A DNA stretch of 40,215 bases from Candidatus Blautia excrementigallinarum (GTDB lineage Bacteria; Bacillota; Clostridia; Lachnospirales; Lachnospiraceae): contig DWXL01000015.1 of the NCBI GenBank assembly GCA_019119235.1, positions 1-40,215 of the forward strand, in the 5' to 3' direction. The number at the start of each line of letters is the position of its first letter. Within the stretch, counting starts at the first letter, position 1. Under the pieces are notes generated by a model. The model was not told the origin of the DNA. It saw only the letters and a program-made list of their open reading frames with translations, and searched no databases. Position numbers and translations under genes: made by a program. Below are positions 17,923 through 27,496 of this stretch, one piece after another.

Positions 17923-18774
17923 ATGAATGTACAGTGGTATCCCGGTCATATGACCAAAGCAAAACGACAGATGCAGGAGGATCTGAAACTGATCGATCTG
18001 ATCATTGAGCTGGTGGATGCCCGGGTTCCCATTTCCAGCAGGAATCCGGATATTGACAGTCTGGGCCAGAATAAGGCAAGGCTGATCCTCCTGAATAAGG
18101 CGGATCTGGCTGACGAACGTCAGAATGAAGCCTGGAAGGAATATTTCCAGAACAGGGGGGTTCATGTGGTTAAGGTGGATTCCCGCAGCGGCGCGGGAAT
18201 GAAACAGGTGCATGCAATGATCCAGGAAGCGTGCAGAGATAAAATAGAGAGGGACAAAAAGCGGGGGATTAAAAGCCGCCCGGTCCGCGCCATGGTGGCG
18301 GGAATCCCCAATGTGGGAAAATCCACATTTATCAACAGTTTCGCAGGAAAAGCATGTACGAAAACAGGAAACAAGCCGGGAGTTACCAGAGGAAAACAGT
18401 GGATCCGGCTTAATAAAAATGTAGAACTTCTGGATACGCCGGGTATCCTCTGGCCGAAATTTGAGGATCAGAAGGTTGGAGAACGGCTGGCCTGTATCGG
18501 TTCTATCAAAGACGATCTCCTGAATATGGAAGAACTTGCGCTTATTCTGATCGCTTACTTAAAGGAGCGATATCCCGGAGCTCTGGAAAAACGATATGAA
18601 GTATCCGAAGGAGGAGAGGCTCTGGCAGTGATGGAAGAGATCGCGAAAGTCCGGGGCTGTGTAAAAAAAGGAGACGAACTGGATTACGCTAAAACTGCAG
18701 GGATCATCTTTGACGATTTCCGCAGCGGTAAAACAGGGCGTATCACTCTGGAATGGGCGGAGCAGGAAGTATGA
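17923..18774 (+). CDS. ylqF: Ribosome biogenesis GTPase YlqF/RbgA
   Basis: 283 aa; VQWYPGHMTKAKRQM, circularly permuted G motifs LNKADL, GIPNVGKSTFINS, LLDTPGILWPK. Confidence 0.97.
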   Translation: MNVQWYPGHMTKAKRQMQEDLKLIDLIIELVDARVPISSRNPDIDSLGQNKARLILLNKADLADERQNEAWKEYFQNRGVHVVKVDSRSGAGMKQVHAMIQEACRDKIERDKKRGIKSRPVRAMVAGIPNVGKSTFINSFAGKACTKTGNKPGVTRGKQWIRLNKNVELLDTPGILWPKFEDQKVGERLACIGSIKDDLLNMEELALILIAYLKERYPGALEKRYEVSEGGEALAVMEEIAKVRGCVKKGDELDYAKTAGIIFDDFRSGKTGRITLEWAEQEV

Positions 18775-19526
18775 AAACAGTAAAAGAAATTACAGAAGAA
18801 TTCGAAACGCTTCCCTGCAGAGAACGGGGGGAGCTGTACCGGATTTATCAGGACGATCCGCGAAGCGGCGTACAGAAACTCCTGGAACGTTACCGGAAAA
18901 AAGACGAAGCTCTGGAGAAAGAAAAACTCCGGATGGATGAGATGCTTCAGTATGAACGGGAATACAGTCATCTGGGATATCTCTGCGGGATCGATGAGGC
19001 CGGGAGAGGCCCTCTTGCCGGTCCGGTGGTGGCAGGTGCTGTGATCCTGCCGCAGGATAAGAAGATCCTGTATCTGAATGATTCCAAGAAGCTTTCCCCG
19101 GCGAAACGGGAGGAACTTTATGATGTGATCATGGATGAGGCGGTGGCTGTGGGCGTCGGGATCGTGGGGCCGGCCAGTATCGACGAGATCAATATCCTGC
19201 AGGCGACTTACGAGGCCATGCGTCAGGCCCTGGGGAAACTTTCTGTGAGGCCTCAGCTTCTTCTCAACGATGCGGTAACTATACCGGGTGTGGATATGCC
19301 TCAGGTGCCGATCATCAAAGGAGACGCAAAAAGCGCTTCTATCGCGGCGGCCAGCATCATAGCGAAAGTCACAAGGGACAGGCTGATGCAGGATTATGAT
19401 AGAGCCCTTCCGGAATACGGATTTGCTTCAAATAAGGGGTACGGCTCGGCGGAGCACATCGCGGCGCTGAAGAAATACGGACCGTCTCCCATTCACAGAA
19501 AAAGTTTTATCACGCATTTCATATAA
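18771..19526 (+). CDS. rnhB: Ribonuclease HII
   Basis: Start 18771 (MKTVKEITEEF) with ATGA overlap of the ylqF stop; GIDEAGRGPLAGPVVAGAVIL, LNDSKKLSPAKREELYD. Confidence 0.96.
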   Translation: MKTVKEITEEFETLPCRERGELYRIYQDDPRSGVQKLLERYRKKDEALEKEKLRMDEMLQYEREYSHLGYLCGIDEAGRGPLAGPVVAGAVILPQDKKILYLNDSKKLSPAKREELYDVIMDEAVAVGVGIVGPASIDEINILQATYEAMRQALGKLSVRPQLLLNDAVTIPGVDMPQVPIIKGDAKSASIAAASIIAKVTRDRLMQDYDRALPEYGFASNKGYGSAEHIAALKKYGPSPIHRKSFITHFI

Positions 19527-19566
19527 CAAAAGATACCTACATAAAACATTGAAAAGGTGAAGTTCT

Positions 19567-19917
19567 ATAAATAAACGGGAAACAGGCGGCTGCTATGAAC
19601 ATAAGGCGGCCGCTTTTCTGGAATCACGGGGACTTAAAGTCCTTGAACACAACTTCCGCTGCCGTACCGGAGAGATCGATCTAGTCGCCAGGGACGGAGG
19701 GTATCTGGTGTTTGTTGAGGTAAAATACAGACACAATAAAACAAGCGGCCGTGCAGCGGCTGCAGTGGACAGAAGGAAACAGCACATGATCAGCCGAACT
19801 GCGCTGCTTTATCTCATGTGCCGCGGATACAGCGAGTGTACAGACTGCCGCTTTGACGTGGTGGCTTTTGACGGGGAGAAGATCCAGTGGATACGAAATG
19901 CTTTTGATTTCATCTGA
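19567..19917 (+). CDS. YraN family (UPF0102) nuclease-fold protein; apparent ATA initiation codon
   Basis: Frame reads (I)NKRETGGCYEHKAAAFLESRGLKVLEHNFRCRTGEIDLVARDGGYLVFVEVKYRHNKTSGRAAAAVDRRKQ...; in-frame TGA at 19558-19560; no ATG/GTG/TTG until GTG 19708, inside the conserved core; SD-like AAGGTG 7 nt before ATA. Confidence 0.85.
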   Translation: MNKRETGGCYEHKAAAFLESRGLKVLEHNFRCRTGEIDLVARDGGYLVFVEVKYRHNKTSGRAAAAVDRRKQHMISRTALLYLMCRGYSECTDCRFDVVAFDGEKIQWIRNAFDFI

Positions 19918-19972
19918 ATCCGTGGACCGATAGTAAAAGATACAGATAAAATAAGATGTTCAGGAGAAGAAT

Positions 19973-20824
19973 ATGGAGATAAAATGGACCGGGGATGGCT
20001 ATCCTCATATGAATATAAAAGAAAATAAAGGCGTTACATATCTGACATTTCCCGCGCTGGAAAAAGAGGAGGGATTTGTGCATGCCTTCAGTACCCGTCT
20101 GGGCGGTGTGAGCGAAGGAATCTACGCCTCCATGAACTTGAGTTTTACCAGAGGGGATAAAGAGGAGGCGGTCCGGGAGAATTTCAGAAGATTTTCCGAC
20201 GCCCTGGGTTTTTTGCCGGAGGATATCGTATGCTCCAGCCAGACACATACAGCTAATGTAAGGGTGATGACGGAAAAAGACAGAGGAAACGGCGTAACAC
20301 GTCCGGGGGTCTACGAAGACGTGGACGGCATGATCACGGATGTTCCCGGGGTGGTCCTGGCGACCTTTTACGCGGACTGTGTGCCTCTGTATTTCGTGGA
20401 TCCTGTACACAGGGCTGTGGGGCTTTCCCATTCCGGATGGAGAGGGACCGCCGCCGGCATCGGAAGGGTGACGGTAAGAAAAATGCAGGAAACATATGGC
20501 ACAAGGCCGGCGGATATACGAAGCGCGATCGGGCCGTCCATCTGCCAGGAATGCTACGAGGTGAGCGAGGACGTGATCCTTGAGTTCAGAGACGCCTTCC
20601 CCAAAGAAAACTGGAAAGACTTGTTCTACCGAAAAGAGAACGGGAAATATCAGCTGAATCTTCAGAAAGCCAACCGTCTGATCATGATGGACGCGGGCAT
20701 TCCGGCTGAGAATATTTCCCTCCCGGGAATTTGTACATGCTGTAATCCGGAATTCCTTTTTTCCCACAGGGCGTCAAAAGGGCGCCGGGGAAACCTCGGC
20801 GCCTTTCTGGGAATTCGGAAATAA
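19973..20824 (+). CDS. Laccase-domain / polyphenol oxidase family protein (YfiH/PgeF-like; start may be 20009)
   Basis: HAFSTRLGGVSEGIYASMNLS, QTHTANV, DVDGMITDVPGVVLATFYADCVPLYFVDPVHRAVGLSHSGWRGT, AIGPSICQECYEV. Confidence 0.95.
   Translation: MEIKWTGDGYPHMNIKENKGVTYLTFPALEKEEGFVHAFSTRLGGVSEGIYASMNLSFTRGDKEEAVRENFRRFSDALGFLPEDIVCSSQTHTANVRVMTEKDRGNGVTRPGVYEDVDGMITDVPGVVLATFYADCVPLYFVDPVHRAVGLSHSGWRGTAAGIGRVTVRKMQETYGTRPADIRSAIGPSICQECYEVSEDVILEFRDAFPKENWKDLFYRKENGKYQLNLQKANRLIMMDAGIPAENISLPGICTCCNPEFLFSHRASKGRRGNLGAFLGIRK
20777..20806. terminator. Hairpin at the convergent end of the laccase-domain gene and prs
   Basis: AAGGGCGCCGGGGAAACCTCGGCGCCTTT; lies inside the last codons of the + strand CDS. 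Confidence 0.55.
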
Positions 20825-22100: not shown

Positions 22101-22129
22101 TTGATTTTTACTTCTGAAATTGTTATGAT
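22101..22129 (+). promoter_or_regulatory. Promoter for the DUF512 gene
   Basis: TTGATT (22101-22106), 17 bp, TATGAT (22124-22129). Confidence 0.65.
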
Positions 22130-22196
22130 AGTAGCGACACAGAGAGAAAAACAGACTGTAAATAACAGTGGATATATAGCAGCAGAGGGAATCAGA

Positions 22197-23579
22197 TTGA
22201 AAGAAAAAAGACATGTGATCTCCAGGGTCCTTCCGGGAAGTATTGCCGAGGAGCTTGAACTGGAACCGGGAGATATTCTGGCAGCGATCAACGGCCAGCC
22301 GGTGGAGGACGTATTCGATTACCGGTATCTTATGAACGATGAATATGTGACGCTTCTGGTGGAGAAGGCAGACGGAGAACTCTGGGAACTGGAAGTGGAG
22401 AAGGAGTTTGAGGAGGATCTGGGCGCGGAGTTTGAGAACGGGCTGATGGACGACTACCGTTCCTGCAGCAACCGCTGTATTTTTTGTTTCATTGACCAGA
22501 TGCCTCCCGGAATGCGGGAAACATTATATTTTAAAGACGACGATTCCCGGCTGTCTTTTCTTCAGGGGAATTATGTGACTCTGACCAATATGAGCAGGAA
22601 AGATATCGATCGTGTGATCCGGTACCGCCTGGAACCCATAAATATCTCTTTCCAGGCCATGAATCCGGAACTGCGGTGCAGGATGCTGCATAACCGTTTT
22701 GCGGGCGAGGCGCTTGAGAAGGTGGATCTTCTTTATGAAGCCGGTATTTCCATGAACGGCCAGATCGTCCTATGTAAAGGAATTAACGATGGCAGCGAAC
22801 TGGAGTACAGTCTTGAGAAGCTTTCCGCTTACGCTCCGGTTCTTCAGAGCGTTTCCGTGGTCCCGGTGGGGCTTACGAAATTTCGCGAAGGTCTTTTTCC
22901 CCTTGAACCATTTACGGAAGAAGATGCGGAGAAAGTGCTTGAACAGATACACCGCTGGCAGAAGGCCATGTATGAGAAACACGGGATCCATTTTGTCCAT
23001 GCTTCGGATGAATGGTATATTCTCGCCGGACAGGAGCTTCCGGAGGAAGAGCGCTATGACGGTTATATCCAGCTGGAGAACGGCGTGGGAATGCTGCGGC
23101 TTCTGGGTACGGAAGTGAAGGCCGCTCTTGAAGAGCGCGCCGGCGACGACAGGAAGCTGAGGATTTCTGCGGCTACCGGAAAACTTGCCGCGCCATACCT
23201 CAGACAATGTATGGACGCGATACATGAGAAATTCCCTCGTGTTAATGTAGAAGTACATGAGATCTCGAACCGTTTTTTCGGCGAAAGGATTACGGTGTCC
23301 GGTCTGATCACGGGACAGGACCTGAAAGAACAGCTGACGGGACAGGACCTGGGAGAGCGGCTTCTGATCCCCTGCAATATGCTCCGCAGCGGAGAGGATG
23401 TTTTTCTTGACGACATGACAGTGGAAGAGCTTTCCGAAGCCCTGAACACCGAGATCGTAGTGGCAGATGAAGATGGAGCGGATCTGGTATCTTCCGTACT
23501 GGATCCCCCTGACCATAAAAAACAGATAAGGAGACAGATGTATGAGCAAACCAGTAGTAGCGATCGTGGGAAGGCCTAA
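22197..23579 (+). CDS. DUF512 domain protein (PDZ + radical SAM), probable TTG start
   Basis: [39 protein letters not shown] (PDZ); [43 protein letters not shown] (CxxxCxxC); upstream in-frame starts 22101 and 22125 coincide with the -35 and -10. Confidence 0.85.
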
Positions 23580-25571: not shown

Positions 25572-26579
25572 ATGGCTAAAATCAGTGTATTGGGCGCAGG
25601 AAGCTGGGGAACGGCGCTTTCCCTTCTGCTTCATAATAACGGACACAGCGTACGGCTCTGGTCGGCGCTTAAAGATGAAGTGGAGATGCTGAGGACAAAG
25701 AGAGAGCACGAGTCAAAACTTCCGGGAGTCCACCTTCCGGAGGATATCGAGATCACATGGGATCTGGAAAGCTGTCTTAAGGATCCGGATGTGGCCGTAC
25801 TCGCGGTTCCGTCCCCCTTTACCAGAAGCACATCCGCGCAGATGGCGCCGTACGTGAAAAAAGGCCAGATCATCGTCAATGTTGCAAAGGGAGTGGAGGA
25901 GAATACTCTGATGACATTAAGCGAGATCATCAGCCAGGAGATTCCGCAGGCGGATGTCTGTGTGCTTTCCGGTCCCAGCCATGCGGAGGAAGTCGGACGG
26001 GGGATCCCCACAACCTGCGTGGTAAGCGCCTCTGAACGCAGTATGGCGGAATATCTTCAGGGCATTTTTATGAGTCCGGTATTCCGCGTCTATACAACTC
26101 CGGATATCCTGGGAGTAGAGCTGGGAGGAGCGCTTAAAAATGTGATCGCCCTTGCCGCCGGAGCTGCGGATGGACTTGGTTATGGCGACAATACAAAAGC
26201 CGCTCTGATCACACGGGGGATTGCGGAGATTGCCCGGCTGGGGACGAAGATGGGAGCCAGGATCGAAACCTTTTACGGGCTGTCAGGAATCGGAGACCTT
26301 ATCGTTACCTGCGCCAGTGTTCACAGCCGCAACAGAAAAGCAGGCTATCTCATAGGAAAAGGATATACAATGAAAGAGGCCATGGATGAGGTGAAGATGG
26401 TCGTGGAGGGCGTCTATTCCGCAAAGGCGGCCAAAAGCCTGGCGGAAAAATTCCAGGTTGAGATGCCCATCATAGAAGAGGTCAACAAGGTATTGTTTGA
26501 GGACAAGAAAGCTGCAGATGCGGTTATGGATCTGATGATCCGCGATAAAAAAGTAGAAACACCAATGCTGCCGTGGTAG
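25572..26579 (+). CDS. gpsA: NAD(P)H-dependent glycerol-3-phosphate dehydrogenase
   Basis: Start 25572 (MAKISVLGAGSWGTALSLLL); ELGGALKNVIALAAGAADGLGYGDNTKAALITRGIAEI. Confidence 0.97.
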   Translation: MAKISVLGAGSWGTALSLLLHNNGHSVRLWSALKDEVEMLRTKREHESKLPGVHLPEDIEITWDLESCLKDPDVAVLAVPSPFTRSTSAQMAPYVKKGQIIVNVAKGVEENTLMTLSEIISQEIPQADVCVLSGPSHAEEVGRGIPTTCVVSASERSMAEYLQGIFMSPVFRVYTTPDILGVELGGALKNVIALAAGAADGLGYGDNTKAALITRGIAEIARLGTKMGARIETFYGLSGIGDLIVTCASVHSRNRKAGYLIGKGYTMKEAMDEVKMVVEGVYSAKAAKSLAEKFQVEMPIIEEVNKVLFEDKKAADAVMDLMIRDKKVETPMLPW

Positions 26580-26585
26580 TAAAAA

Positions 26586-26629
26586 AAGGCTGTGTCGCCG
26601 GGATAAATCCCGGGATACAGCCTTTTCGA
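26586..26629. terminator. Bidirectional intrinsic terminator between gpsA and the aldo/keto reductase gene
   Basis: AAAAGGCTGT..CCGGGATaaATCCCGG..ACAGCCTTTT. Confidence 0.88.
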
Positions 26630-26668
26630 TCTTCTCTGCCTGAAAGAGATGAGGACCGGAGCCGGAAC

Positions 26669-27496
26669 TCAGAACATCACTCCCCGAAGATCCTCAGGAA
26701 CAGAGGCACTGTGATAATTCTCATTCAATGTGTCCAGAAGATCCATATCTTCCTGATCGATGGAAAAATCAAAAATATTCGCGTTGGATTCTATGCGGTC
26801 CGGGTGGACAGATTTGGGAATTACGGAAATTCCCTTCTGCACAGCCCAGCGAAGACCTACCTGCGCCGGTGTGTGGGCATATTTCGTACCCATTACACAG
26901 AGAACGTCATGATCCAGGTAAGCGCCTCTGGCAAGAGGAGCGTAAGCCTGGACCTGAATTCCGTTCGCCTGACAATAATCGATGAGTTCTTTCGGATAAC
27001 AGAGCGGATGGCATTCGATCTGATTTACTGCTGGAACGATGCCGGAAACCCTGCGGAGTTCTTCGAGATGACGGATCTCAAAGTTGCTGACGCCGATGGA
27101 AAGAGCCCTGCCGGAACTCAGGATCTTCTCCATTTCTTTCCAGGTGCTTAAGTAGCAGCCCGGAACAGGCCAGTGGATCAGGTAAAGATCGATGTAGTCC
27201 AGGCCAAGACGGTCAAGGCTGCGCTGAAAAGCGCCTTCCACATCGCCCAGACGCTGGGCATTGTTCCAGATCTTGGTGGTGATAAAAAGCTCTTTGCGCG
27301 GGACACCGCATCTGGCAATACCGCGTCCTACATTCTCTTCGTTCTTATACGCGGAAGCGGTGTCAATCATGCGGTAGCCGCATTTCACAGCGGAAATAAT
27401 AGCGTTCTCCGCTTCGTTTTCTCCGGTGGCTTTATATACGCCCAGACCAAGCAGGGGCATTTTTCTGTCGTTATTTAAAAATACTGCGTTAGTCAA
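26669..27496 (-). CDS. Aldo/keto reductase (probable TTG start)
   Basis: LGLGVYKATGENEAENAIISAVKCGYRMIDTASAYKNEENVGRGI, LDYIDLYLIHWPVPG, IGVSNFEIRHLEEL; TTG ACT AAC at 27496 preceded by GGAGGAAC. Confidence 0.93.
   Translation of the reverse strand: MTNAVFLNNDRKMPLLGLGVYKATGENEAENAIISAVKCGYRMIDTASAYKNEENVGRGIARCGVPRKELFITTKIWNNAQRLGDVEGAFQRSLDRLGLDYIDLYLIHWPVPGCYLSTWKEMEKILSSGRALSIGVSNFEIRHLEELRRVSGIVPAVNQIECHPLCYPKELIDYCQANGIQVQAYAPLARGAYLDHDVLCVMGTKYAHTPAQVGLRWAVQKGISVIPKSVHPDRIESNANIFDFSIDQEDMDLLDTLNENYHSASVPEDLRGVMF

Follow-up and report, generated by a model that had tools for sequence, protein, structure and literature searches.

Few characterised bacterial genes have conserved near-cognate start codons, and pcnB is one of them. 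Two others, infC and Streptomyces sigR, are non-canonical-start genes that are held down by IF3 (PMC5472188). Streptomyces sigR has a GTC start in 32 of 34 species and a GTT start in the other two, and its translation is IF3-repressed (PMC5472188). The AUU or AUC codon of infC follows a Shine-Dalgarno (SD) sequence, is conserved and is known to confer IF3 sensitivity; one codon (ATT, in some cases ATC) is kept as a self-feedback loop. sigR is not an initiation gene, its non-canonical start is kept across the genus, and the codon, which follows a strong SD, is swapped only for another non-canonical one.

We analysed a window of 40,215 nucleotides from Candidatus Blautia excrementigallinarum, taken from a fragmented assembly (G000) of the gut bacterium Blautia that is 78% complete. 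It contains a yraN gene that probably belongs with these systems. The features of the locus are:

18753..19526, plus strand: rnhB, the upstream neighbour (longest frame), whose stop lies 40 nt before the ATA
19526..19542, plus strand: conserved leader element ACAAAAGATACCTACAT, consensus ACWNAAGATRCCNACAY, with the core GATACCNACA at 19532-19541, 35 nt upstream of the ATA
19555..19560, plus strand: Shine-Dalgarno sequence AGGTGA, overlapping the in-frame TGA at 19558-19560, with a duplex energy of -7.9 kcal/mol with the anti-SD
19567..19569, plus strand: putative initiation codon ATA, aligned with Met/GTG/ATT/ATC starts of relatives, the same in the sister species and 35 nt from the leader element
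19567..19917, plus strand: yraN (UPF0102, PD-(D/E)XK-type nuclease fold), 116 aa plus stop
19973..20824, plus strand: pgeF/yfiH-like downstream neighbour with an ATG start, which served as a control gene

As in infC and sigR, there is no canonical start in frame, an SD lies at working distance and the weak start is kept in relatives. Unlike infC, yraN is not known to be linked to initiation fidelity, and its codon differs between species. It resembles sigR in being a non-initiation gene with a non-canonical start kept across a genus, but it uses four near-cognate codons, has GTG, TTG or ATG in other species and is preceded by a dedicated leader element. IF3 repression has been shown for sigR and may also act on yraN.

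In the window, the conserved yraN N-terminus is not preceded by an in-frame ATG, GTG or TTG. The codons after the in-frame TGA are AGT TCT ATA AAT AAA CGG GAA, and the open frame ends at TGA 19915-19917. The preliminary description of this DNA had reported this absence together with the codons, the alignment of the ATA with the Met of relatives and an SD-like AAGGTG at 19554-19559; all were borne out by the sequence and the alignment. AGGTGA ends 6 nt before the ATA, and the 16S 3' end in one member of the genus is GGATCACCTCCTTT. The earliest in-frame ATG, GTG or TTG is GTG 19708, which lies within the nuclease core, and a start there would drop ~40% of the protein.

Read from the ATA, the protein is YraN/UPF0102, as had been proposed from the sequence. 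In profile searches the translation exceeded the curated cut-offs of NF009150 (E 2.7e-38, 130.7 bits against 81), TIGR00252 (114.1 bits against 69.05) and PF02021 (E 1.9e-29, 102.3 bits against 23.6), and it aligned with PDB 3fov (E 4.2e-11). It resembles YraN/UPF0102 proteins such as 3fov in sequence, in the GEIDL...EVK core and in its rnhB-adjacent position. The PD-(D/E)XK core, GEIDL...FVEVK, is intact, as the preliminary description had also stated; nuclease activity itself is predicted.

The closest relative is a sister species (G032, locus L002), whose YraN is 86% identical and whose locus carries the same ATA, leader element and SD sequence. Comparison of the codon between siblings, an earlier suggestion, thus shows that the ATA of the window is not unique. 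The two yraN genes differ at 8, 8 and 29 first, second and third codon positions, respectively, mostly the third, giving a dN of 0.067, a dS of 0.49 and a dN/dS of about 0.14. The 60-nt leader contains 1 difference, compared to about 13% over 2 kb. yraN is under purifying selection, with the unusual start retained.

Across the genus, the stretch from the upstream in-frame stop to the conserved N-terminus contains no in-frame ATG, GTG or TTG in 19 of 61 yraN genes (18 if the GTG at codon +5 in L067 is accepted). By our assignment, these 19 start with ATA (2), ATT (2), ATC (3) or CTG (12). Canonical codons lie near the assigned starts of L003, L004, L008, L022 and L072, where the assignment is provisional. 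Among the 19 are the ATT gene of the isolate Blautia sp. XA-2221, the ATC gene of the isolate B. caecimuris DSM 29492 and the CTG genes of G004 and G068, two near-complete genomes of one to four contigs. Overall, the start codon of Blautia yraN varies among ATA, ATT, ATC, CTG, GTG and TTG, and ATG is a minority start, found in about a quarter of the genus. In contrast, no yraN lacked a canonical start among one representative from each of 48 other Lachnospiraceae genera (0/48; Fisher p 4e-6, ignoring relatedness); unlike the window gene, all of these have ATG, TTG or GTG available.

At the same Blautia loci, a canonical start was missing in 0 of 42 rnhB and 0 of 57 pgeF genes. In twenty 20-kb loci it was missing for yraN in 11 of 20, compared to 1 of 176 for nine neighbouring families, which, from reading their sequences, we take to be rplS, lepB, ylqF, rnhB, pgeF, prs, der, plsY and gpsA. 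The difference between genera and the near absence of such cases in control genes show that the lack of canonical starts in yraN is more than chance. The family at 22101-23579 (2/20 without a canonical start) was excluded because the longest frame of the window over-extends it. A further control, the ORF at 26573-27151, seemed start-less in relatives and was rejected as an apparently spurious frame whose matches are broken by stops and share no common start. The sole case among the nine families, lepB of L153, has a long open N-terminal extension with no canonical start codon before query residue 39. Immediately upstream of lepB, L144, L146, L151 and L155-L157 have a hairpin, GGGACAATA...TATTGTCCC, that resembles a terminator and precedes a T-run.

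The window belongs to a clade of 12 species (SH-aLRT 99) whose assigned starts are ATA (2), ATT (3), ATC (4), GTG (2) and CTG (1), with no ATG or TTG. The codon at the window's ATA position is ATA, ATT, ATC or GTG throughout the clade; L069 has ATT there and a CTG two codons upstream that matches the element spacing better. In every species of the L001-L006 subclade, GGTGA lies 5-6 nt before this codon. The GTG inside GGTGA is in frame in L003-L005 but not in L001, L002 or L006, which indicates that the start they have in common is the later codon. The SD duplex is weaker in the ATT/ATC subclade (-4.3). Other lineages start two codons earlier, with CTG and TTG alternating at the homologous site (for example, CTG AAA GAA AAT versus TTG AAC GAA AAT). 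On a tree of rnhB and pgeF, the start codon changed at least 24 times and crossed between the canonical and near-cognate classes at least 9 times.

Alignment of the gap between rnhB and yraN revealed a nearly invariant stretch, TACAAAAGATACCNACAY. The leader element, ACWNAAGATRCCNACAY, is new and is specific to the rnhB-yraN gap of this genus. Its core occurs within 90 nt upstream of yraN in 39 genus loci, and the total rises to 42 of 61 with the variant in L020 and the loci with longer N-termini, L108 and L119; it was found next to yraN in 0 of the 48 other genera examined. The 17-base form is present in 24 of 65 genus genomes at one copy each, and by coordinates all copies except that of G074 are at the yraN locus. 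The element precedes 21 assigned near-cognate starts by 33-37 nt and 20 canonical ones by 31-40 nt, with a median of 35 in each group; this tightness is partly by construction in L003, L004, L008, L069 and L119, where starts were assigned with the element in view. This near-fixed distance makes the element a ruler that favours the near-cognate assignments. By the same rule, the start would be an in-frame TTG 35 nt from the element in L119 and 37 nt in L108. The N-terminus of YraN is extended by a Lys-rich stretch of about 51 residues in L108 and about 31 in L119, and the element shifts upstream with the start. Near-cognate starts occur in 21 of 42 loci with the element and 4 of 17 without it; these are raw counts, uncorrected for relatedness, with only 2 supported independent pairs.

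Several roles for the element were considered and rejected. Its frame relative to yraN differs among species, which excludes a coding sequence. As a regulon motif it also failed, since a 12-base version was about as frequent as a reversed control in 10 genomes; nearly all of the off-locus copies inspected fall inside reading frames. Pairing with 16S rRNA was no better than for shuffles, and the folded leaders had no common fold. Rfam covariance models gave no match to 19200-20100 at E up to 1.

Taken together, the absence of a canonical start and its recurrence, the purifying selection, the near-fixed element distance and the controls make it probable that the intact yraN starts at the near-cognate ATA at 19567, read by fMet-tRNA and placed by AGGTGA, and that this weak start is kept by selection. 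This suggests that yraN production is deliberately held low or switched. Initiator fMet-tRNA would read the ATA, at which AGGTGA would position the ribosome. Translation would be weak and the weakness itself selected, perhaps because an excess of a nuclease-like protein is harmful. Gating may act through IF3 and the fidelity of start-codon selection, as in infC and sigR, through a factor that reads the leader element, or through both. In the most specific form of this proposal, which we think unlikely, a trans factor or the ribosome would read ACWNAAGATRCCNACAY ~35 nt upstream and license a mostly rejected start codon, as a dedicated translational switch; YraN would then be made only under certain conditions. 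The preliminary description had compared the locus with infC, and the comparison is apt, as Blautia infC itself looks like a gene with a conserved ATT start. An ATT AGC region follows GGAGG in nearly all of 30 infC loci (L164-L193), with an in-frame ATG usually four codons later; L176 has no ATG there. The ATT AGC region and the ATG-less infC of L176 suggest that near-cognate initiation is likely to be workable in Blautia.

Other explanations differ in how they treat the element and the codon. The element may serve yraN transcription, either within an internal promoter or as a protein-binding site, with the weak start a separate, neutral or compensating trait. We regard this as possible but doubtful. 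Its specificity to the rnhB-yraN gap and its frequent absence where yraN abuts or overlaps rnhB are in keeping with this, and a short leader of fixed length would likewise yield near-fixed spacing. However, neither a -35 hexamer nor a TATAAT-like box is conserved (column information is near 0 at -25 to -11), the gap has no promoter-like match, and the element is single-copy rather than a regulon motif. Alternatively, little YraN may be needed, so that weak starts are tolerated drift under relaxed constraint and carry no regulation. The high codon turnover, with its many changes on the tree, fits such drift, but the conserved SD and an element at near-fixed distance point to constraint, and none of the nine AT-N codons in the clade is ATG (naively 0.75^9, ~0.08, which is not strong). 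On balance we think drift rather doubtful, a shade more so than the promoter.

Translation could also begin upstream in another frame, for example at GTG 19557 (GTG AAG TTC TAT AAA TAA), or pass through the TGA, with yraN reached by re-initiation, frameshift or read-through. Such a short overlapping frame is present in the window, and ATA, ATT and ATC could then encode an internal Ile; being synonymous Ile codons, they could by their third-base pattern in the clade alone have this meaning. An internal Ile is disfavoured by the in-frame stops, by the GTG that two species, L005 and L006, have at this codon after the same GGTGA, and by the spacing rule, which fits a start at the codon itself. Relatives do not share the overlapping frame and vary in their upstream frames, and in L026, L028 and L121 the CTG directly follows an in-frame stop, so that initiation upstream appears very unlikely. 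The preliminary description had left three options: true non-canonical initiation, which is supported, and a recent ATG-to-ATA loss or a sequencing error, which are not. That yraN recently lost its start and is a pseudogene in the making would agree with a first canonical codon far inside the core, but the ATA is shared with the sister species at the dS and dN/dS given above, the pattern recurs across the genus with intact frames, and the entire 12-species clade is without ATG; we consider such a loss highly improbable. An error at 19569 might be suspected in so fragmented and incomplete an assembly, but the identical ATA in another assembly (L002/L031), that of the sister species, and ATT or ATC at the same codon in the two isolates exclude it in practice.

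In a literature search restricted to open-licence papers, we found none that described a non-canonical start for yraN. If initiation at the near-cognate codon is real, yraN would add a case that spans a genus and many codons, in a DNA-processing protein, and its Blautia variants form a natural set for measuring the benefit of a weak start. Gene callers that accept no start other than ATG, GTG or TTG would shorten yraN or overlook it in about one third of Blautia species. Frames much longer than that of the window also occur at this locus. In L118 (G083), the yraN frame is open for 264 codons upstream, and rnhB and yraN are seemingly fused in one reading frame; G052 and G179 have comparably long frames around yraN, of 389 and 398 aa.
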